DNA from: a virus
Virus record (IMG/VR): IMGVR_UViG_3300037258_000297
Coordinates: 1 to 31,929 of that record
Length of the DNA: 31,929 nt
Strand: one strand, 5' to 3'
Below are positions 9,257-31,717 of the stretch, piece by piece; position 1 is the stretch's first letter, and every line of letters begins with the position of its first letter. A program made the position numbers and the translations under genes. The notes beneath the pieces are model-generated. The model ran no database searches, was not told the origin of the DNA, and saw only the letters and a program-made list of their open reading frames with translations.

Positions 9257-9700
9257 ATGGCCGGTGAAAAAGGCGCAACCTTCTGTGACGACCTGTTGAA
9301 GCTCGTCTTCAACGCCACGGCGATCGCGAACCTCGCGGACAACGCGGCCAGCTCGCCGCTCACGAACCTCTACCTGTCCCTGCACACCGCCGACCCCACG
9401 GCCAGCGGCAACCAGACCAGCAGCGAGGCGAGCTACACCGGCTACGCCCGCGTCGCCGTCGCACGCACCAGCGGTGGGTTCACGGTCAGCGGCAGCAGCG
9501 TGACGCTGACCTCGCTGACGGCGTTTCCCGCCTGTACTGCGGGTGCGCTGCCGGGGCAGACGATCGCCTATTTCGGCGTCGGCACCGCTTCGAGCGGCAG
9601 CGGGAAACTGTTGTACGCGGGGCCGGTCACGCCGAACCAGAACGTGGCCAACGGGGTCACGCCGGAATTGACGACGGGAACCACGATCACGGAGAGTTAA
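9257..9700 (+). CDS. Phage tail/fibre-associated structural protein
   Basis: ATG at 9257 follows GAGGA. The 147-residue protein carries the pattern LYLSLHTADPT, then SEASYTGYARV and TAFPACTAG, which recurs in small phage structural proteins usually annotated as tail or fibre components. It is beta-rich with many Thr/Ser/Gly and no signal or membrane segment. It opens the run of fibre-like genes between portal and capsid protease. The exact role, such as a fibre connector or decoration, cannot be fixed from sequence. Confidence 0.6.
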   Translation: MAGEKGATFCDDLLKLVFNATAIANLADNAASSPLTNLYLSLHTADPTASGNQTSSEASYTGYARVAVARTSGGFTVSGSSVTLTSLTAFPACTAGALPGQTIAYFGVGTASSGSGKLLYAGPVTPNQNVANGVTPELTTGTTITES

Positions 9701-9702
9701 AC

Positions 9703-10071
9703 ATGGCAGCCACCGACGCCCAAATGCAGGCATACTGCGATCAGCGCATTCGCCCTCGTGCGGAACAGCTGCGCGCCCTGCTCAACGCCATCGCCGACGA
9801 CAAAGCCGCCATCAGTGATGAGTACGCTCGCGCCGTGAGCGCCAGTGCGTGGGCCGACGCCCGCACCGATGGGCCGCCCCACCTGTTGCAGAGCGGTAAC
9901 AGCGCCAACCCCGATGACCTGCTCAACTACAACGCGATCATCTCGGCGCTAACCAATCTGGTCAACGGCACCAGCGTGGCCAATGGCTCGACCGTGGCAA
10001 CTGACGCCGCCACGCTGCACGGCAACTGGTCTGTACTCATGAATGCGTGCGTGCGGCCGGTTGGGAGCTAA
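9703..10071 (+). CDS. Hypothetical structural protein
   Basis: ATG at 9703 with GGAG at 9691-9694, two bases after the previous stop. The 122 residues start with a helical region (DAQMQAYCDQRIRPRAEQLRA) and end in a Ser/Thr/Asn-rich segment. The helical start with repeated polar heptads may mediate trimer formation. The gene lies inside a fibre cluster, so it is probably a virion component or fibre accessory; no family is recognised. Confidence 0.5.
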   Translation: MAATDAQMQAYCDQRIRPRAEQLRALLNAIADDKAAISDEYARAVSASAWADARTDGPPHLLQSGNSANPDDLLNYNAIISALTNLVNGTSVANGSTVATDAATLHGNWSVLMNACVRPVGS

Positions 10072-10074
10072 TCC

Positions 10075-11379
10075 GTGGCCACGAACGCCTCAGCACAGTG
10101 GTGGGTCAGGACCGACGGGGCCGATACCAACGGCGGCGGTTACGACGCCGGCATCTCTGGTGCCGGCACCAACTACTGCGACCAGGCAGCCGCGCAGGCT
10201 TCGTGGACCAGCGAACTGACGTTGACCGTCACCACGAACGTGCTGGCCGACACGTCTGCCAAGTTCACGGCGGCGATGGTCGGGAATGCTGTGAACGTGC
10301 CCGGTAAGGGATACTACTGGATTATCACGTATACCGACGCAAACCATGTCGTCGTTCAGCTCGGGACGGGAGCGGCTACGAGTTTCGCGTCGCAGAGCGG
10401 CAAGGTCGGCGGGGCGCTTCGGAATCCATATGCCCTCAGTAGTGGCGGCTCAGTCACGGCACCAGGCACAACGACCGCGCTCGTGGCCGGTAACCAGATC
10501 AACGTGCGGGCGAGCGGCAGCGGATCAGTTGGCTCGCCGGATTATACGCAGACCAACTTTGCAACGTATCCGGCCGGCAACAGCACAGCCGGCTACGTTT
10601 CGTGGGTCGCGTACAACGGCGTGCCGTATGTCAAGGGCAATGGGCTGTGGATGTACAGTTCCAATTACCAGAAACTAACGGGGTTTTATTTAACCACGTC
10701 CAGCAATAGCAACGGCGGCTACGGAATCATCGACGGTGGCTGCCAAAACTCTGTGATAACCAATTGCACCTTCGATGCGAATAATCTGGGTGTCTGTGGA
10801 ATCGGAGGAGCGCAGTCAATGAAAATCATCGGCTGCGAGTTCGTCGGCAACGGCACACCGAGCCTAAGCGGTATTATTGCGGCCAGTTATGCGACGCTGA
10901 TCAAGAACTGCAAGATTCATGGCTGGGGAGCCTGGGGCGTGTCAGAAAACAGTACCATCGTTGGGGTGAGAATCGAAAATTGTGCGATTTACAACAATGT
11001 TAGCGGTGGTGTTAGTCTCATGACAACCGGCATAGTTCTTTCCGAGGTTTCCGGCTGCACCATCGATCACAATGGCGGCGATGGTATCCAGATCGCCACC
11101 ACAGCGGCGGCTCAGTGGGCCGTCCTCCTCAACAACAACATCACCAACAACGGCGGTCACGGCATCAACGTCGCCGGCGCCAGCAGCACAGCCACGAACG
11201 ACGCGGCGATTGGGTTCGCGGACTACAACAACGTCTGGACCAACACCAGTGGCAATTATGGCAACCTCAGTGCCGGTGCCCATGATTTGAGTGTCGATCC
11301 CGGCTATACGTCCGGCAGCGGGGCGTACACGCCGACGAACGCCGCGTTGATCGCGGCGGCGCCGATTGGCTTTGCGTGA
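10075..11379 (+). CDS. Right-handed beta-helix protein (tailspike/fibre candidate)
   Basis: GTG start at 10075, three bases after the previous stop. The 434-residue protein begins WWVRTDGADTNGGG, then from about residue 205 shows repeating short strands with Asn/Gly/Cys turns (NSVITNCTFDANN, MKIIGCEFVGNG, LIKNCKIHGWG, VRIENCAIYNN, VSGCTIDHNGGDG, VLLNNNITNNGGHG). That roughly 20-28 residue rhythm with stacked N/C positions is the signature of parallel beta-helix proteins such as pectate lyases and phage tailspikes. A receptor-binding or polysaccharide-degrading role is likely; catalytic residues cannot be assigned. The second half is visibly richer in A/T than neighbouring genes, which suggests acquisition from elsewhere. 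Confidence 0.75.
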   Translation: MATNASAQWWVRTDGADTNGGGYDAGISGAGTNYCDQAAAQASWTSELTLTVTTNVLADTSAKFTAAMVGNAVNVPGKGYYWIITYTDANHVVVQLGTGAATSFASQSGKVGGALRNPYALSSGGSVTAPGTTTALVAGNQINVRASGSGSVGSPDYTQTNFATYPAGNSTAGYVSWVAYNGVPYVKGNGLWMYSSNYQKLTGFYLTTSSNSNGGYGIIDGGCQNSVITNCTFDANNLGVCGIGGAQSMKIIGCEFVGNGTPSLSGIIAASYATLIKNCKIHGWGAWGVSENSTIVGVRIENCAIYNNVSGGVSLMTTGIVLSEVSGCTIDHNGGDGIQIATTAAAQWAVLLNNNITNNGGHGINVAGASSTATNDAAIGFADYNNVWTNTSGNYGNLSAGAHDLSVDPGYTSGSGAYTPTNAALIAAAPIGFA

Positions 11380-11388
11380 GAGCTGCCA

Positions 11389-12567
11389 ATGGCGACCAAT
11401 AACCTGTATATCGGGGCCGCGCAGCCGGGCGGCCTGTTCATCGGGGCGGTGCAGCCACCGAGCGGCGGCGGTACAACAGTCACCTTCGCCGGCGCCGCGA
11501 CCGGCGTCGGCAGCGCTGCCGGTGCCCTTGCCGCGCTCGCCGCGACCGCCGCCAGCGCAACGGGAACCGCCTCGGCGTCCGGTGTCGCCGCTGCTCTCGC
11601 CGTGATGCTCGCCGACGCCGACGGCAGCGCCCTGGCGTCCGGCGTCAGCGCAGCGAGCGCCAGTATCGCCGGCACGGCCAATGGCACTGCCAGCGTCAGT
11701 GCGGCCGGCATCGCCTCCGCCGTCACCGCGGGCACGGTCACCGCGTCGCCGAGTGTCGCAGGTGCCGGCAGCGCGGTTTGGACGACCGTCGGCAGCATCG
11801 CCGGCTCGAGCAGCGCCGCGGCGGGCGGGGCGAGCGTTGCGGGGGTCGTAGGCAGCGCTGACGGTGTGGCGACCGCGGCGGGCGGATCGGCAGCGCTTGC
11901 GGGAACGGCGGGGCAGGCGGATGGGATTGGCGCGGCGAGCGGGGTGCTGTGGGCCGTGGCGTCCGGGGCGATGGCGGGCAGCGCGGACGGGATCGCCACC
12001 GCGACGGGGGTGTTGCAGGCGGCGGTGCAGGCGGCGGGACAGGCGGATGGCAGCGCGACGACGAGCGGCGTGCTGCAGGCCGTGGCGGATGCGGCGGGGT
12101 TTTGCGCTGTCGGCTGCGCTGCCGCCGGCGTGTCGCCCTCGCTGTCGTTTCTGGTTTCCGGCGGCGCCTGGATCGAGCGGCGCCGCGGGCTGCTGTGGGC
12201 CGAGCCGGCGCGTGAGGTCCTCTGGACGGAACGGCTTCGGGGCGCGATCTGGAGCACTGAGATGATCGGCACCTTAACGAAACGCCCGGCCGAGGTGCGC
12301 GAGTACACGGCCGACTTTAGCCACCTACCCGAGTTGGTCGGCGGCGACCAGCTCGGCGCGGTCGTCTCGATCACCATCACCGCGGCCGAGGGAGCCGGCG
12401 CGCCTCCGGAGTCGAGCGACGCCTCGGTCGACGCCGGCACGGCAATCGTCTTCACGCTCGCCGGCGGCGTGAACGGCGTCCTCTACCTCGTCGAGGTGCT
12501 GGGCACGACCGTGGGCGGCGCCACGCTCCAGGTCAGCGGCTACCTGCGCGTCAGCAGCACCGCCTGA
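11389..12567 (+). CDS. Ala/Gly/Ser-repeat fibre with C-terminal fibre-tail adaptor-like domain
   Basis: The 392-residue protein has three parts. Residues 1-28 form a short head (NNLYIGAAQPGGLFIGAVQ). Residues ~30-240 are a low-complexity array of about 20-residue units of the form G-x-A-D-G-x-A-x-x-x-G-V-L-x-A, clearest at GSADGIATATGVLQA and GQADGSATTSGVLQA. A Trp-rich linker (WIERRRGLLWAEP) leads to residues ~293-392 (KRPAEVREYTADFS, then GAVVSITITAAEG and TLQVSGYLRVS), which resemble phage fibre-tail adaptor domains. The array probably folds as a fibrous shaft. Such repeat arrays change length easily, so the gene may vary between strains. Confidence 0.6.
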   Translation: MATNNLYIGAAQPGGLFIGAVQPPSGGGTTVTFAGAATGVGSAAGALAALAATAASATGTASASGVAAALAVMLADADGSALASGVSAASASIAGTANGTASVSAAGIASAVTAGTVTASPSVAGAGSAVWTTVGSIAGSSSAAAGGASVAGVVGSADGVATAAGGSAALAGTAGQADGIGAASGVLWAVASGAMAGSADGIATATGVLQAAVQAAGQADGSATTSGVLQAVADAAGFCAVGCAAAGVSPSLSFLVSGGAWIERRRGLLWAEPAREVLWTERLRGAIWSTEMIGTLTKRPAEVREYTADFSHLPELVGGDQLGAVVSITITAAEGAGAPPESSDASVDAGTAIVFTLAGGVNGVLYLVEVLGTTVGGATLQVSGYLRVSSTA

Positions 12568-12743: not shown

Positions 12744-12759
12744 GTGTAGACGTCTACAC
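12744..12759. repeat. 16-bp palindrome GTGTAGACGTCTACAC, copy 1
   Basis: A perfect inverted repeat, also found at 16054-16069 and 28304-28319. Copies 1 and 3 share flanks (GCC, then AGG before and TC-C-rich after), which points to a common origin for the longer unit. Confidence 0.9.
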
Positions 12760-16049: not shown

Positions 16050-16073
16050 GGGAGTGTAGACGTCTACACTCCC
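16050..16073. repeat. 24-bp perfect palindrome (core GTGTAGACGTCTACAC), copy 2
   Basis: The 16-bp core at 16054-16069 is extended here by GGGA on the left and TCCC on the right, giving a 24-bp uninterrupted palindrome. It lies 10 bases after the stop of the decoration gene and about 50 bases before the TTG start of the next gene. Confidence 0.9.
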
Positions 16074-24657: not shown

Positions 24658-26117
24658 ACGAGGCACGCACCGTCCGGCGCGGCGAATCCCTTACCCAAAT
24701 GATGCGGCGCGGCGACGTGCGCGCGCTGATTAACGCCACCGCGGAAATGTGGGATTGGTACAGCCAGCAAAAGAACGGTTTGGGCGACGGTATCCATGAT
24801 CGCTTCGCCCACCCGGCCGTGATCGAGGTGGCGAACGTCACCGGCACCGCCCTCGACCGCTTTAGCATCCTGCAGCTCACGGATCCGCTATTTCTCCCGA
24901 CCGCCGGCGCGGCGTCGCTGCTGAGCTTCCAGCAAGGCGCGGCACTGAGCGGCATCGTGCCGCCAATCGTGCCCGATCCGAACCGGTGGGTCATCACCCT
25001 GGATCCGATCCCCGCGCAGCGGGCATTGCCGGCGCCGCTCTTCGGGCGGGCCGCGATCGCGGGCGCGGTAGCGTGCCAGGTCCTCGTCACGAACACGAGC
25101 CATCAATACTGCGCGCCGGTCGGCGGCCAAACGGGCTATCTGGCGAGCGTCCCCAGCGGGCCTGGGCTGATCCTGTCCTCCTCGGGCCAGGTGGGCCTGC
25201 AGTGGTGCTACGTCTATCTGCGCTGCTGCTCGCCGGTGTCGGTCGTTGGGTTCAACTCGGGCAGCCGCGGCGTGACGGGCGGCTGCTGTCCCAACGGCTA
25301 CGCGCCGACGGTGTGCGTCACGCTGCCGACCGGCCCGGCCTACCCCGGCTCGCCGTGGCCGCAAGCGATCACGTCGATCTACGCCGGCATTCAACTGTCA
25401 TTCGTCGCGTCGTTCGACGGGCTGCTGAAAGGCCCGGTGGCAGGCTGCGGCTGGTTCGGGACCGCGGAATGCGAAAGCATTTTCGGCGACCTAGTCTATG
25501 TGATGATCACCCGCGCGCTGACCTCCGGCGGCGTCCTCGCCTGGAGCATTAACGTCTGCCTCGGCGATCGCGATGGCAATACGTACGAATGCAACGACTG
25601 GGGCGGCCCAGCCGCCGCGGATTGGGACTGCCAATCCGGCTGGATCGGCGTCGACGGCCGGTATAGCTCGCCGGGCGAGCTCGGCTCGACGGCCGTGGTG
25701 AGCGTCGGCGATTGCGCCGGCGGTGGCGGCGGTGGCGGCGGTACCGGCATTAGCTGTAGTTGTGCCGGCGGCTGCTCGGGCGTGGGCGCGCTGACGGCCA
25801 CGTACACGGACACGGTCGGGGCGTGGACGGCGATGCCCGACTCGGCGACGCTGCCGTGCCAGCCCGTCAACGCGGGCGCCGATCATGCGTGGTACGTCGT
25901 CGCCGGCGTCGCCACCGTCTTCGGTCAGGGCCAGGCGAGCGAGATCGCCTGCGGCTCCGGAAGCGCCTCAGGGGTGCCAATCTTCGCGTGGACCGATGCC
26001 GACGGCGTCGGCCACGTGGTGGAATGCGAGGCCGGCAACACTTGTTCGCCTTTCAGCGCAGTCTTCAAGGTTGACGACGGCGCCGGCAACACGATGACGG
26101 TAACGGTGATCGAATGA
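24654..26117 (+). CDS. Cys-rich structural protein of the tail region
   Basis: GTG at 24654 overlaps the upstream stop; AGGAG precedes it. The 487-residue protein has a helical start (ALINATAEMWDWYSQQ), then a beta-rich middle and a C-terminal domain with a Gly run (GGGGGGGGTG near residue 361-370). It contains over 20 Cys, many paired (CCSP, CCPNG, CSCAGGCSG), unusual for a protein folded in the cytoplasm. They could bind metal or form disulfides in the mature particle. Such size and Ser/Gly/Thr bias suit an exposed tail tip or fibre protein. No family is recognised. Confidence 0.6.
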   Translation: MNEARTVRRGESLTQMMRRGDVRALINATAEMWDWYSQQKNGLGDGIHDRFAHPAVIEVANVTGTALDRFSILQLTDPLFLPTAGAASLLSFQQGAALSGIVPPIVPDPNRWVITLDPIPAQRALPAPLFGRAAIAGAVACQVLVTNTSHQYCAPVGGQTGYLASVPSGPGLILSSSGQVGLQWCYVYLRCCSPVSVVGFNSGSRGVTGGCCPNGYAPTVCVTLPTGPAYPGSPWPQAITSIYAGIQLSFVASFDGLLKGPVAGCGWFGTAECESIFGDLVYVMITRALTSGGVLAWSINVCLGDRDGNTYECNDWGGPAAADWDCQSGWIGVDGRYSSPGELGSTAVVSVGDCAGGGGGGGGTGISCSCAGGCSGVGALTATYTDTVGAWTAMPDSATLPCQPVNAGADHAWYVVAGVATVFGQGQASEIACGSGSASGVPIFAWTDADGVGHVVECEAGNTCSPFSAVFKVDDGAGNTMTVTVIE

Positions 26118-27886
26118 AAACGCATGTCGGCTGCATCGGCGCCGGTTGCCCGCTTTGCGTCAAGCTGCGCGCGCCAGGCTATGAGCGCGTCGCCGCGCAG
26201 TTGCAGCATGGTGCGGCGATCGCCGCCCCGTGCGTCCACTTCGGCGCTGCGACGGGCGAGCAGCTCGCCGGCTGCGCCGGCTGCGGCGACAAGTCGCCCG
26301 GCTCGCCTGTCCACCACTGCCGGCTGCATGGCGCGTGCTCGCCGAGGGTGAGCGGCTATCCGGGGATCCGCTGCTGCGCGCAATGCCCGGACCGGCAGCC
26401 GGCCGACCGTGTGCAATTCGTCGTCACGGCGGACGGGATCGGCGACCACATGGCGGCCTTGACGGTCACCACGGCCTACAAGCGCGCTCACCCCGCCAGC
26501 GAGCTCACGCTGATCGTGAAGCACGCGCAATGGGTCCGGCTCTTCGAGGGCTACGACGCCCTCGCCCCAAGCCCCGTCGTGTGGGCGGCGCCGATCGTCC
26601 CGGAGATCACGCACCGCGACGGGGGCACGCACTTCGTCGAGGCGGTGGCCCGGCATCGTCCGCGCGCGCTGCCCGTGCTGCGGCCGCTGCCGGCCGAGGC
26701 GCATGCCTGGGCCGCGCCATATCGCGGCGCCGTCGTGCTGGCCCCGGTGACGCTCCAGGACGGCCACAACCGCGACTGGCTGCATTCGCACTGGCTCGAG
26801 CTGGAACGCCAGCTCCTCGCCGCCGGCTACTCCGTCGTCGTCATCGCTGGCGGCCGCGACGGACCCCATGTCTCCGGGTTCCGCTCACCGGCGCTGCTCG
26901 GCGAACCGGCCGAGCGCGTGGCAGCGCTGATGCGCGGCGCGGCGTGCGTGGTCGCCAACGAAAGCGGCATGGCCCACCTCGCCGGCGTGCTCCAGGTCCC
27001 GGCCGTCGTGCTGGCGGCGCAATTCAAGGGAGCGACGATCCACGGCTTCTATCCAAGGTCGCGCGTCATCCAGGGGCCGCTGGCCTGTAGCGGCTGCCGC
27101 TGGACGGGACCGCAGTGGCGCGAGGCGTGCCATCACCTCTGCGCCTCGCTCCAGTCGATCCCACCCGAAACGGTGCTGGCCGCGGTGAAGAAATTGGCGC
27201 CGCTGCCCGAGCCGGTGACGGTCTCCGTGCGCGTCCCAGCGCTGCGGGCGACCACTTACGAGGGGGACTACTACGACGAGCACACAGCCGCCGGCCTGGA
27301 CTACCTCGCGCATGGCGAGTGGCAGGAGCAATACGGCCACTGGCTCGCCGACGCCTTCGACTGGCGCGGCAAGGCGGTGCTCGACATCGGCTGCGCCTGC
27401 GGCTCAATCCTCAGGGGCTTCCACCGTGCCGGCGTGCATGGGCACGGCCTCGACCTGTCGGCGCATATGGTCGGCCTGGGCCGCGCGAAGTGGCCCGAGC
27501 TGGCCGACGTCCTGCACGTCGGCGACGCGGCCGAGCTGGGCCGTTTCGCCGACGGCGCCTTCGACGGCCTGCATAGTGCCCAGGTCTTCGAGCACCTCGA
27601 CCCGGCGCGCGTACCCGCCACGCTGCGCGAGCTGCGCCGCGTCATCCGCGGCGGCGGCCTGCTCTTTTGCGCGCTCGATACGACCGAGCTGTTCGCGCGG
27701 CAGGGCCGCACGATGGACACGGAAGACCCCACGCATATCTGCGTGCGGCCGCGGGCGTGGTGGCAAGAGCAATTCGCCGCCGCCGGCTGGCGCGACGTGA
27801 CCGGCGCGTGGGACGCGCGGCTACGGGAGGCGCCCGGCAGCTTTCTCGCGCGCTACGACTGGGACTACCTCGTCCTCGTTGGGTAA
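26114..27886 (+). CDS. GT9-type glycosyltransferase fused to a SAM methyltransferase
   Basis: The ATG at 26114 overlaps the upstream stop (ATGA). The 590-residue protein has three parts. Residues ~1-95 carry many Cys (CIGAGCPLC, CAGCG, CCAQC), probably zinc sites. Residues ~100-360 resemble heptosyltransferase-like GT9 enzymes: ADGIGDHMAALT at 106-117, VVIAGG at 242-247, ANESGMAHLAG at 281-291 and a late CSGC. Residues ~380-590 form a class I methyltransferase with VLDIGCACG at 422-430 and GHGLDLS. A nucleotide sugar would be moved to an acceptor, and the sugar or acceptor methylated. Placed after tail genes, it may modify a tail or surface protein, or the host surface. The target is unknown. 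Confidence 0.85.
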   Translation: MKTHVGCIGAGCPLCVKLRAPGYERVAAQLQHGAAIAAPCVHFGAATGEQLAGCAGCGDKSPGSPVHHCRLHGACSPRVSGYPGIRCCAQCPDRQPADRVQFVVTADGIGDHMAALTVTTAYKRAHPASELTLIVKHAQWVRLFEGYDALAPSPVVWAAPIVPEITHRDGGTHFVEAVARHRPRALPVLRPLPAEAHAWAAPYRGAVVLAPVTLQDGHNRDWLHSHWLELERQLLAAGYSVVVIAGGRDGPHVSGFRSPALLGEPAERVAALMRGAACVVANESGMAHLAGVLQVPAVVLAAQFKGATIHGFYPRSRVIQGPLACSGCRWTGPQWREACHHLCASLQSIPPETVLAAVKKLAPLPEPVTVSVRVPALRATTYEGDYYDEHTAAGLDYLAHGEWQEQYGHWLADAFDWRGKAVLDIGCACGSILRGFHRAGVHGHGLDLSAHMVGLGRAKWPELADVLHVGDAAELGRFADGAFDGLHSAQVFEHLDPARVPATLRELRRVIRGGGLLFCALDTTELFARQGRTMDTEDPTHICVRPRAWWQEQFAAAGWRDVTGAWDARLREAPGSFLARYDWDYLVLVG

Positions 27887-28230: not shown

Positions 28231-28265
28231 CGCCGCTGGCCATTAGTGGCACGACCGGCGAGGGC

Positions 28266-28299
28266 GGTTTGCTTTTCGCGCGCGGCGCGCGCTCAATGC
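28266..28299 (+). repeat. GTTTGCTTTT-type dispersed repeat, copy 3
   Basis: GGTTTGCTTTTCGCG, then GCGCGCGCTCAATGC; it lies after a CCATTAGTGGC motif (28238-28248) and just before palindrome copy 3. Confidence 0.8.
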
Positions 28300-28303
28300 C
28301 AGG

Positions 28304-28319
28304 GTGTAGACGTCTACAC
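28304..28319. repeat. 16-bp palindrome GTGTAGACGTCTACAC, copy 3
   Basis: Perfect palindrome 22 bases before the ATG at 28342, followed by a run of seven or more C. Same core as at 12744 and 16054. Confidence 0.9.
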
Positions 28320-28341: not shown

Positions 28342-28638
28342 ATGGACCCGCAAACCTACGCGCAAATCGCCCAGGAGCACGGCGTCGCCGCGGCGGTGCT
28401 GGTCTTCCTGCTCGGCTGCCTGGTCGTTGTCGGCGTGTGGATGTCCCGCCAATTTGAGTGGTTCAAGAAGGAGGTCGCGCAACCCACCGTGTCGCGGCAC
28501 CTCTCGATGATGGACCAGGTCTCCACCTCCGTCGAGGCGTTGAAGGTCGGCCAGCAACAGCACACGGAAATCCTCCAGGTCCATGGCGAGGCGCTGAACG
28601 AGATCAAGGAAGCGATCACCACGGGCCGCAAGAGTTGA
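28342..28638 (+). CDS. Single-span membrane protein with coiled coil (holin/spanin-like candidate)
   Basis: ATG at 28342; an in-frame earlier start (28246) would cross the repeats. The 98-residue protein has a short N-terminus (MDPQTYAQIAQEHG), one membrane span at about residues 15-34 (VAAAVLVFLLGCLVVVGVW), then a long polar coiled coil (VSTSVEALKVGQQQHTEIL, EALNEIKEAIT). This layout is common in small phage membrane proteins that act in host lysis or anchor at the envelope. A holin or inner-membrane spanin role is a guess from shape and neighbourhood. Confidence 0.6.
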   Translation: MDPQTYAQIAQEHGVAAAVLVFLLGCLVVVGVWMSRQFEWFKKEVAQPTVSRHLSMMDQVSTSVEALKVGQQQHTEILQVHGEALNEIKEAITTGRKS

Positions 28639-28662: not shown

Positions 28663-28884
28663 ATGGCAAATCCAAACGGCAGCGGAACGGGGTGCGTGGG
28701 CACGGCGCTCGCGTCCCCGTTGTTCCTCGTGCTCCTGACGCTCAAGCTCTGTCACGTAATCGACTGGTCCTGGTGGTGGGTCACGGCGCCGCTCTGGGCG
28801 CCGCTCATGCTCGCGCTATGCCTGCTGACCCTGGCCGGGATCCTCATCGGCCTGGCTGCCCGGTGGGACCTGCACAAGGGCTAA
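28663..28884 (+). CDS. Two-span small membrane protein
   Basis: ATG at 28663 with AAGGGGAAAA upstream, 25 bases after the previous stop. The 73-residue protein has two hydrophobic segments (PLFLVLLTLKLCHVI and LWAPLMLALCLLTLAGILIG) joined by DWSWWWVTAP. The motif K-L-x-x-V-I-D-W-S-W-W-W-V is that of small phage membrane proteins often labelled 'transmembrane Fragile-X-F'. Their role is not settled; a holin-like function is possible given the size and the neighbouring membrane protein. Confidence 0.7.
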   Translation: MANPNGSGTGCVGTALASPLFLVLLTLKLCHVIDWSWWWVTAPLWAPLMLALCLLTLAGILIGLAARWDLHKG

Positions 28885-29015: not shown

Positions 29016-29043
29016 CTTCGTGTTCCTTCGTGTCCTTCGTGGA
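29016..29043 (+). repeat. TTCGTG triple repeat, copy 4 (forward, upstream bracket of S53 gene)
   Basis: CTTCGTGTTCCTTCGTG, then TCCTTCGTGGAA; it ends about nine bases before the ATG of the peptidase at 29052. Its inverted partner is at 30878-30906 with about one mismatch over 27 bases. Confidence 0.9.
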
Positions 29044-29051
29044 AAAAAAAC

Positions 29052-30872
29052 ATGCATTGCACGCCCAAGTTTCGCACCCGCCGCTACCAGCCCCGCACCG
29101 GGGCCGTCGCCCTCACCCCGGAGCTGATGGCCCGCGTCTATGACCTGCCGAGCGTGAAGGCGACGCGCTCGCCCGTGATCGGCATCCTCGAGCTGGAGGG
29201 CGGCTACCACGACAGCGACAATGCCACCGCGTTTTCGCACATGGGTCAGCCGGTCCCGACGATGCAAAACATCTCCGTCAGCACCGCCGGCAACGCCGTG
29301 GGCGGCCCGGCCGATGGTGAGGTGGCGCTCGACATCCAGGTCGCCGCCGGCGTCTGCCAGAAGATGGCCGGCCGGAAGGCCACGGTCGTGCTGGCGTGGG
29401 CGCCGAACAACGGCGGCGCCTCGTTCGCGGCCGGAATCACTGCCCTGGTCACAGCCGGCGTCGATACGATTTCGATCTCGTGGGGCGCGGCCGAGCGGCA
29501 ATGGTCAGCGACCGACCGGATGGCCGTGGGCGACGCGATCGACAAGGCTAACGCCGCTGGCATCCCGGTATTTGCCGCGAGCGGCGACGCTGGCGCCGGC
29601 GACGGCTTCCTCTCGCCGAACGTCGATTTCCCCGCGTCCTATCCCGGCACGATTGGCTGCGGCGGCACGACGTTGACCTACAACTCCGATCTCACCTACG
29701 GCAGCGAAAGCGTCTGGCACGATCGCGCCGGCGACGGCACCGGCGGCGGGTTCAGCCGCGTCTATCTGCGTCCCTCGTGGCAGGGCGCCAACAGCGGCAG
29801 CAGCTTCCGCGGCGTGCCGGACGTGGCCGGGCCGGCCGATCCCGCGGGACCGGGCTGGCGCATCGTCCTCAACGGCGAGATCCAGCCGATCGGCGGCACG
29901 TCGGCCGTCGCGCCGATGTGGGCCGGCATCGTCGCCGCGCTCAAGGCGGCCGGCTACAGCGGCCGCACCTTTGGCCCCTCGCTATACGCCCATGCCTGGG
30001 CCTTTAACGACGTGCTCAGCGGCGACAACGGCCGCTTCCCCGCGGTGCCGGGCTGGGACGCCTGCACCGGCCTGGGCTCGCCCAACGGCGCGGCCCTGGT
30101 CGGCGCGATGAGCCTCGAAACGCCGGCCACGCCGGTGATGCCGGCCGTCCCGGCCGTCCCGGCCGCCCCGACCATGCCGCCACCGGCTCCCGCACCCGTG
30201 CTGCTCGCCCAGGCCCAGGCCGCGGCGGTGCAGGGGGTCGAGGACGCCGCGCGGCGCAGCCCCCTTCTCGCGCCCCTTATCCGCCAGTGCGAGCCGGACG
30301 TGCGTAATCGTCTGGCCGCGCTCTGGCAGCCACCCGGAGCCACCACGCATATGGAACCGCGCACCTTGAACCTCGCCGGCCTGCTCGTGACCTTGCAGAC
30401 CATCATGCAGGACATCCAGATCGTCTTGACCACGCTCGGCCAGATCACCCCGCCGCCGGCCAGCTCGCCGCCGGCCAGCTCGCCGACGGCCCCGCACGCC
30501 AGCACCGGCTCGATCTCGCAGGACACGATTGACGCCGACCTCGGCGCCGTCAGTGCCGCCTACGGCACCTTCAGCACCGACAACGCCGCCCTGAGTGCCG
30601 CGCAGGCCGCCGTCGCCACGGCCCAGGCGACCGTGGCGACCGACCAGGATGGCCTGCAAACGGCGCTGGCCCAGCTCCAGACCGACGTGGCCGCCTTCAT
30701 CGCGCAGAACACGCCGACGCCGGCGACGCCTCCGGTACCGGCGACGATGCACGCCAGCAAGCCGCGCGACGAGGAGGAGGACGAGGACGAAACGGACGAT
30801 TACAGCACCGTCTCGCTCGACGGCCTCAAGCCGCTTGGCGCGCAGGTCCTGGTCACGTACGGCCCGGTCTAA
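29052..30872 (+). CDS. S53 (sedolisin/kumamolisin) serine-carboxyl peptidase without pro-domain
   Basis: ATG at 29052; the GTGGA of the repeat is the only ribosome-site candidate. The 606-residue protein opens at the usual mature end of the family (VALTPELMARVYDLPS, GILELEGGY). Catalytic residues are visible: Glu90 and Asp94 in DGEVALDIQVAAG, Asp179 in AASGDAGAGDG, and Ser284 in GGTSAVAPMW. The Ca-site loop is FNDVLSGDNG with GWDACTGLGSPNG (320-346). The ~180-residue inhibitory pro-domain typical of S53 enzymes and any signal peptide are absent. Residues ~355-606 add a Pro/Ala-rich linker, a coiled coil (AAQAAVATAQATVATDQDG-like) and an acidic stretch (DEEEDEDETDD). It may be a virion-associated or lysis protease. 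Confidence 0.9.
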   Translation: MHCTPKFRTRRYQPRTGAVALTPELMARVYDLPSVKATRSPVIGILELEGGYHDSDNATAFSHMGQPVPTMQNISVSTAGNAVGGPADGEVALDIQVAAGVCQKMAGRKATVVLAWAPNNGGASFAAGITALVTAGVDTISISWGAAERQWSATDRMAVGDAIDKANAAGIPVFAASGDAGAGDGFLSPNVDFPASYPGTIGCGGTTLTYNSDLTYGSESVWHDRAGDGTGGGFSRVYLRPSWQGANSGSSFRGVPDVAGPADPAGPGWRIVLNGEIQPIGGTSAVAPMWAGIVAALKAAGYSGRTFGPSLYAHAWAFNDVLSGDNGRFPAVPGWDACTGLGSPNGAALVGAMSLETPATPVMPAVPAVPAAPTMPPPAPAPVLLAQAQAAAVQGVEDAARRSPLLAPLIRQCEPDVRNRLAALWQPPGATTHMEPRTLNLAGLLVTLQTIMQDIQIVLTTLGQITPPPASSPPASSPTAPHASTGSISQDTIDADLGAVSAAYGTFSTDNAALSAAQAAVATAQATVATDQDGLQTALAQLQTDVAAFIAQNTPTPATPPVPATMHASKPRDEEEDEDETDDYSTVSLDGLKPLGAQVLVTYGPV

Positions 30873-30877
30873 GTCGA

Positions 30878-30906
30878 TCCACGAAGGACACGAAGGGACA
30901 CGAAGG
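30878..30906 (-). repeat. TTCGTG triple repeat, copy 5 (reverse, downstream bracket of S53 gene)
   Basis: TCCACGAAGGACACGAAGGG, then ACACGAAGG, five bases after the peptidase stop. With copy 4 it encloses the S53 gene; with copy 6, seven to nine bases on, it forms a ~60-base imperfect palindrome. Confidence 0.9.
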
Positions 30907-30951: not shown

Positions 30952-31077
30952 ATGTTGTTTGGCCAAACGCATCACCCGCAGATCTTCGAGTGGAGCAACC
31001 CGCATTGGGGCTGGTTCTTCGCGGGAATGGTGGTGTCGGCGCTGTTCGCTCTCGTCATGAACCGGTACAAGAACTGA
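30952..31077 (+). CDS. Small single-span membrane protein
   Basis: ATG at 30952, seven bases after GGAGG. The 41-residue product begins MLFGQTHHPQIFEWSNPHWG, has one membrane span (WFFAGMVVSALFALVM, about residues 21-36) and ends NRYKN. It lies in the same neighbourhood as two other small membrane proteins and the peptidase. It could be part of a lysis or envelope-modifying set, but nothing in it identifies a function. Confidence 0.6.
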   Translation: MLFGQTHHPQIFEWSNPHWGWFFAGMVVSALFALVMNRYKN

Positions 31078-31204: not shown

Positions 31205-31717
31205 ATGTTCTTTTTGAGCCGACACCGACTGCGCCAGATTTACCGCGCGCACCGCGACGCCAAGCCCGACCTCCATCCCAACGCGCACAGCGTGCGCACC
31301 CAGCACGAGCCGTGGGAAGAGGAGTTCGCGCGCGCGATCCACACCTACAAGATCGAGTGCCGGCGTCCGTATCCGACGTGGAGCGAGGTCCTGCAGATCC
31401 TGCTGGCCCTGGGCTACCGCCGGCCGTCGCGGTGGGAGGAGAAGACGCCACCACGCCGCGCGGCCAAGGCCGACCGGCTGACGCGCTCCGAGCTGCACGC
31501 CGCGCTGCTGTGGGTCTTCAACCAGCTCGAGCAGACGTGCGCCGTCCAGGACGCCGAGGACGCCGTTGGCCTCAACGCGCATCTCCGCGCCGTGTGGGGC
31601 GCGCGTGACGCGGTCAATGAGCTATTCGCCGCGCGCGAGGAAATTGCGTCCACGAAGGGCACAAAGAAGCACGAAGGGATCCAGGGCTGCGCAACCGTGG
31701 GCGCCGGCATGGCGTGA
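31205..31717 (+). CDS. Hypothetical protein with repeat-derived C-terminus
   Basis: ATG at 31205 (weak GAGGGC upstream); an earlier in-frame ATG at 31115 is less likely because the sequence between reads poorly. The 170-residue product starts MFFLSRHRLRQIYRAHRDAK, contains EPWEEEFARAIHTYKIECRR and SELHAALLWVFNQLEQ, and appears mostly helical. The last ~22 residues (STKGTKKHEG onward) are encoded by a reverse TTCGTG repeat at 31649-31677 and the bases after it, so the original stop was probably near 31650. No family is recognised. Confidence 0.6.
   Translation: MFFLSRHRLRQIYRAHRDAKPDLHPNAHSVRTQHEPWEEEFARAIHTYKIECRRPYPTWSEVLQILLALGYRRPSRWEEKTPPRRAAKADRLTRSELHAALLWVFNQLEQTCAVQDAEDAVGLNAHLRAVWGARDAVNELFAAREEIASTKGTKKHEGIQGCATVGAGMA
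31649..31677 (-). repeat. TTCGTG triple repeat, copy 7 (reverse, inside a coding frame)
   Basis: TCCACGAAGGGCACAAAGAA, then GCACGAAGG, read through by the gene ending at 31717. It is the reverse partner of copy 6, so the genes at 30952 and 31205 lie between the pair. Confidence 0.85.

Follow-up and report, generated by a model that had tools for sequence, protein, structure and literature searches.

What use a tailed phage might make of a sedolisin-type (S53) peptidase that lacks its usual prodomain is the question raised by the locus described here. The window, by which we mean the whole stretch of DNA analyzed, is a complete IMG/VR virus record of 31,929 bases. It carries genes for a terminase, a lambda-type portal, a head-protease fusion, a cement protein, a head-tail joining protein and a tape-measure protein, which identify it as the late region of a tailed phage. 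Fiber-type genes occupy an odd location between the portal and capsid genes (9257-12567), with matches to the podophage GP4 fiber proteins gp80 and gp77 and to a beta-helix protein.

A kumamolisin-type peptidase that starts at the zymogen linker

The gene at 29052..30872 (+ strand) encodes a 606-aa protein. A preliminary description of this DNA had read it as an S53 peptidase with all catalytic residues in place, and the comparisons bear this out, with kumamolisin as the closest enzyme. A sequence match to kumamolisin-As (E 1.3e-52) spans residues 19-353, the entire mature enzyme, and together with the alignments it places the catalytic domain at residues 19-356 (29106..30119, +). The AlphaFold2 model, which used 48 sequences (with 3 sequences the pLDDT was only 37), reaches a pLDDT of mostly at least 90 across about residues 21-356. 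It has a subtilisin-like fold and superposes on kumamolisin-As with a Z score of 50.5 and an rmsd of 1.6 Å over 331 residues at 41% identity. The Glu-Asp-Ser triad and the oxyanion Asp, namely E90 (codon 29319-29321), D94 (29331-29333), S284 (29901-29903) and D179 (29586-29588), all on the + strand, are invariant in the 48-sequence alignment. D320, G334 and D336 are conserved at the calcium-loop positions of kumamolisin, where we presume that they have a role in calcium binding. By fold and catalytic residues, the protein is a member of the S53 family from which the usual prodomain is absent; the large N-terminal prodomain (PF09286, Pro-kuma_activ) is usual in the family and not definitive for it.

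That the prodomain is missing, as had also been claimed, is well established. Residues 1-18 (29052..29105, +) align with the post-prodomain linker of bacterial homologues, the S53-aligned region begins 18 residues after Met1, and residue 1 of the model aligns at position 166 of pro-kumamolisin. The in-frame DNA upstream of the start gave no prodomain match and a six-frame search of the entire contig gave no PF09286, so that a prodomain hidden in another frame or behind another start is ruled out. The claimed lack of a signal peptide likewise holds by a hydropathy heuristic, but it is not distinctive, because the bacterial S53 proteins in our set mostly have no hydrophobic N-terminus by the same measure. 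S53 prodomains aid folding and inhibit the enzyme (PMC6278154). The phage protein may therefore need some other folding helper, a point that counts against its use as a lysis protease.

The added C-terminal tail of about 250 residues (30120..30872, +) was confirmed as well. It consists of a Pro/Ala-rich linker, short helices, a long helix and an acidic end, and is partly conserved in two related proviruses, G001 and G002. In the model, helices occupy residues 385-425, 441-465 and 490-553, the last of them 64 residues long (30519-30710, +) and predicted at a pLDDT of about 80-88. The tail also contains an in-frame ATG at codon 446 in G001 and codon 426 in G002, preceded by the Shine-Dalgarno-like GAGGGAGAATCC and AAGGACAATCC; the equivalent Met434 of the window is without a clear Shine-Dalgarno sequence. 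In some known endolysins, an internal start yields a C-terminal subunit of its own; as no more than a lead, a separate C-terminal S53 product is possible in the two relatives.

A conserved place in three related phages

Orthologues of the peptidase were found in both proviruses, also from IMG/VR, at 64% identity over the domain in G001 (41.5 kb) and 61% in G002 (28 kb). The window and its two relatives have a common gene order of tape measure, tail, glycosyltransferase-like protein, membrane protein, S53, a membrane protein of 41-48 aa and a 170-aa protein. In the window, the glycosyltransferase-9-like part is fused to a methyltransferase (26114-27886), a fusion that is partly kept beside S53 in the relatives (55% over 264 aa in G001). 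Over its full length, S53 is about 52% identical, compared with about 23-38% in the tape-measure and tail proteins, which places the peptidase among the better conserved genes. It is thus core to the lineage and no recent arrival, and the accessory status first assigned to it finds no support.

The suggestion that the gene arrived as one piece between inverted repeats is not supported either. The 28-nt arms are real (29016..29043, + strand, and 30878..30905, - strand), but both are copies of a dispersed repeat, TTCGTGTCCTTCGTGG, of which the window holds 8 copies at up to 3 mismatches against 0.25 expected. G001 and G002 hold the gene at the same place without the repeats. The repeat pair is therefore not specific to the gene and gives no evidence of transfer as a unit, and we rejected a mobile cassette.

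The non-coding DNA upstream offers a different kind of signal. A conserved, promoter-like box of the form CCATTAGTGGCAC...TTTGCTTTTCGC...GCGCGCGCTCAAT (28240..28297, +) lies ahead of the unit formed by the membrane protein and S53 genes, and CCATTAGTGGCAC followed by TTTGCTTTTCGC and GCGCGCGCT precedes this unit in all three contigs (28240 in the window, 33715 in G001 and 22656 in G002, the latter two in reversed coordinates). The window has a second copy ahead of its head genes (12820), and G001 has one upstream of its portal genes (15922, reversed). When the two-part pattern was searched in 2.9 million IMG/VR contigs, only G001, G002 and one in-gene match were returned, the last of which (L069) belongs to an unrelated phage and was dismissed as a chance hit. 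We regard the box as a candidate late promoter-like element. A perfect 16-bp palindrome, GTGTAGACGTCTACAC, is found nearby (28304..28319), with copies at 12744-12759 and 16054-16069, all between gene modules; G001 has a one-mismatch form at about 33661 (reversed coordinates).

Phage late operons often encode proteases, and one could suppose that this one matures the prohead or another structural protein. The major head protein of the window, however, already matches the PHROG family 'major head and protease protein' (phrog_4523, E 1.4e-53), and the S53 gene lies far from the head genes, which makes a maturation role highly improbable.

As to the host, a transposase in G002 is 49% identical to that of Planctomyces sp. 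SH-PL62, while its identity to other transposases is about 25%, so that a planctomycete host is likely for G002; by extension, the host of the window virus is probably a planctomycete too. G001 carries integrase-like genes and ParA/ParB and looks temperate. The preliminary description had considered a lysis factor in a host whose main barrier is something other than peptidoglycan. Planctomycetes, however, do possess peptidoglycan (PMC4432640), and for this reason an unrecognized peptidoglycan hydrolase may still exist in these phages.

Membrane proteins and a holin beside the peptidase gene

Two genes for small membrane proteins directly precede S53 in the window. The first (28342..28638, +) encodes a 98-aa protein with one N-terminal membrane helix by hydropathy, a candidate lysis-associated protein that gave no match in a family search at a threshold of 0.05. 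The second (28663..28884, +) encodes a 73-aa candidate holin, judged by hydropathy and by its position, which in G001 and G002 is taken by a PHROG holin; its match to Phage_holin_3_6 is sub-threshold (E 0.054). Behind S53 follow a 41-aa single-helix membrane protein, EWSNPHWGWFFAG... (30952..31077, +), conserved in both relatives (44% to G2_25372 of G002, with a copy also in G001), and a conserved 170-aa protein (31205..31717, +; about 60% across matched stretches) that closes the block.

In both G001 and G002, S53 is directly preceded by a gene that matches the PHROG holin family phrog_2359 (best E 1.6e-5). The peptidase gene is thus holin-adjacent in the relatives, whereas the window has hydrophobic proteins at this place, neither of the two with a significant holin match, which counts against a lysis role. 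We recognized no peptidoglycan-hydrolase or canonical endolysin family in the window, G001 or G002, a statement about recognition, as parts of these genomes may be missing from the contigs and a divergent lysin may escape notice. The S53 protein itself has no peptidoglycan-hydrolase domain match and its strong matches are of S8/S53 type. With no peptidoglycan hydrolase recognized in the three phages, S53 may be their main lysin, and by its position it would work like an endolysin-type lysis protein.

The same neighborhood bears on the virion-bound enzyme first proposed, in which the tail and its coiled coil would anchor the protease to the phage tail or head, and surface protein of the host would be digested during entry. 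The gene does sit in the late region directly behind the tail genes, and all three orthologues have the C-terminal helical tail with its long helix. Elsewhere, potential anchors are present in the S53 proteins of loci L026, L027, L029 and L039, in the form of Pro-rich linkers and short pieces at the C-terminus. Yet membrane protein genes separate the tail genes from S53, a holin lies directly upstream in the relatives, and several phage S53 proteins are tail-less at about 340 aa (e.g. L008, L015 and L018). We consider a virion enzyme unlikely; a gene that follows the tail genes and adjoins membrane protein genes is more readily explained by lysis.

Prodomain-free S53 peptidases in other viruses

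We then turned to S53 genes in other viruses and in genomes. Four different queries found no S53 in 50,697 phage records, by a method that works, as the window query matched 41 plasmid records with it. Single-sequence scans of IMG/VR (S53, capsid and portal) and of genomes also returned nothing. Single sequences proved insufficient, and the viral and genome loci reported here were obtained with alignment-based scans, which detected 61 viral S53 loci in IMG/VR. The phage-wide search that had been suggested was blank in the phage records but productive in IMG/VR.

Fewer than 60 residues precede the catalytic domain in 26 of the 61 viral loci and in 1 of 79 bacterial-genome loci (one further genome locus is cut by a contig end). 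After removal of copies, 24/42 viral rows, window included, and 1/78 genome loci were prodomain-free (Fisher p 7e-13, only indicative because the search patterns behind the viral and the genome set differed). Consistent with this, the PF09286 profile was found in 0/21 prodomain-free contigs and 22/28 of the others. On the tree, whose deep branches are open and from which neither root nor direction was inferred, the prodomain-free phage rows cluster strongly, and only 2 changes are required to explain the prodomain trait. Most viral rows with a prodomain fall in a separate clade, which combines 15 such rows with one prodomain-free, long-branch row (L058). The 15 loci (L024, L031, L034-L037, L040, L047, L048, L051-L056) may be from giant viruses, as BFVD holds giant-virus S53 proteins, and many of them have C-terminal YPR..G.RP motifs. 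The sole prodomain-free S53 of the genome sample (L101, 9917-11071) lies among ordinary bacterial genes in a Holophagaceae MAG and groups with the phage proteins on the tree.

Another conceivable origin is a host gene that was captured recently, shed its prodomain and is now decaying or inert, and in its favor the N-terminus does resemble the linker end. Against such an origin speak the presence of orthologues in three phages at 61-64% domain identity, the invariant catalytic residues, the clustering of prodomain-free phage proteins with few changes, and the distance to the nearest cellular genes, which are at most 46% identical. We judge it very unlikely. The S53 gene is real and conserved, and the interest lies more in the class than in this one gene. 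Our literature search found no paper on a phage S53 or phage sedolisin, and the main text of a 2025 survey of viral lytic proteins makes no mention of S53.

Lysis genes near S53 in other phage lineages

Genes for holins and endolysins recur next to prodomain-free S53 genes. In L015, a holin (phrog_9284) overlaps the end of the S53 gene, and in L029 an r1t holin lies upstream. Similarly, an Amidase_2/r1t-holin open reading frame is directly downstream of S53 in L027, an Amidase_2 gene begins 73 bp downstream in L039, and an SLT-like protein is encoded directly upstream in L019 (sub-threshold, E 4.6e-4). The L027 amidase was missed by one genome search and found by hmmscan, so the negatives of that search are weak. 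Counted by eye, a holin or endolysin adjoins S53 in 6 of about 20 lineages, the window group included. At an assumed chance rate of 10% per random gene this gives p of about 0.01, and at 15% it gives 0.07, which makes the enrichment suggestive and unproven. A phrog_1493 'endolysin' in L028 was not counted as adjacent; it lies about 2.5 kb from S53 and covers 219-314 of a 394-position profile. The gene directly upstream of S53 in L008 (9222-9899) matches a PHROG esterase/lipase family, and the two products could possibly form an envelope-degrading pair.

About 14 of the 20 lineages have no recognized lysis gene beside S53, which counts against the lysis reading. They would suit a late, moron-like accessory protease that acts outside lysis and, for example once released, breaks down proteins of the host or of competitors, or else disables host defences or liberates peptides. 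The separate endolysins of L027, L039 and L019 would suit it as well. Such a role is harder to reconcile with the one conserved place of the gene in three phages that share only about 23-38% identity in their tail and tape-measure proteins, and with the promoter-like box common to the S53 unit and the head/portal module. All in all, we find it rather improbable.

A proposed lysis protease

The explanation that we favor, with moderate confidence, is that S53 is an envelope protease of the lysis cassette, made in the cytoplasm and released by a holin. Of the options in the preliminary description, the lysis factor gained most from the holin neighbor in both relatives and from the endolysins and holins adjoining other phage S53 genes, although the kind of host first imagined for it is doubtful. 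Starting from the fold, the catalytic residues, the loss of the prodomain, the holin-adjacent place in the relatives and the holin or endolysin neighbors elsewhere, the scheme would run as follows. The sedolisin would be made in the cytoplasm without a prodomain, and S53 and its neighbors would be expressed as one late unit. The adjacent holin would open the inner membrane, S53 would reach the envelope, and the released enzyme would cleave envelope proteins, which may be wall-linked or part of an outer layer, or else peptide cross-links. As S53 enzymes work in acid, the neutral pH of the cytoplasm may conceivably replace the prodomain as a safety catch. Where an endolysin lies beside S53, as in L027, L039 and L019, the protease would be auxiliary.

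A broader formulation joins all of these elements, in that the phage-specific, prodomain-free branch would consist of lysins, serving as the main endolysin-like enzyme in the planctomycete-phage lineage, held in check by a need for acid in place of the prodomain, released by holins and digesting a protein-rich envelope. Taken as a whole it is speculative and we hold it with low confidence. Still, the related viruses with the same arrangement point to a little-known kind of envelope-digesting or cell-bursting protease.

Phage lysis is described via peptidoglycan hydrolases, holins and spanins. A lysis-cassette protease, in about 6 of the about 20 phage lineages carrying S53, would add an enzyme class to it and would open the envelopes of little-studied hosts, planctomycetes among them, to testing. 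In addition, the phage proteins offer a natural collection of S53 enzymes whose folding apparently proceeds without the presumed chaperone prodomain and which are possibly pH-gated acid proteases.

Comparison with known systems

Among known enzymes, kumamolisin and kumamolisin-As (MEROPS S53; PDB 1t1e, 1sio) have the same fold (Z about 50, 41% identity) and the same catalytic quartet; unlike kumamolisin, the phage protein is without a prodomain, carries a helical tail of about 250 aa and is encoded beside membrane protein genes. The S53 proteins of giant viruses (Barrevirus, Homavirus and Terrestrivirus; BFVD) are likewise virus-encoded and of the same fold, but belong to viruses of eukaryotes. 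Subtilisin-like (S8) proteases of Caudovirales (phrog_3677; BFVD A0A6J5R7S5) are of the same clan of folds and give weak matches, yet differ from S53 with a TM-score of only about 0.3. The LysB-type auxiliary lysis enzymes of actinophages offer a functional parallel, in that S53 would work like a second envelope-directed enzyme beside an endolysin, but LysB is an esterase, S53 a protease, and the two have no sequence relation. Finally, canonical phage endolysins (Amidase_2, SLT, M15/M23, GH25) are likewise cytoplasmic, without a signal peptide and holin-adjacent, whereas the phage S53 is a serine-carboxyl peptidase that belongs to no peptidoglycan hydrolase family.
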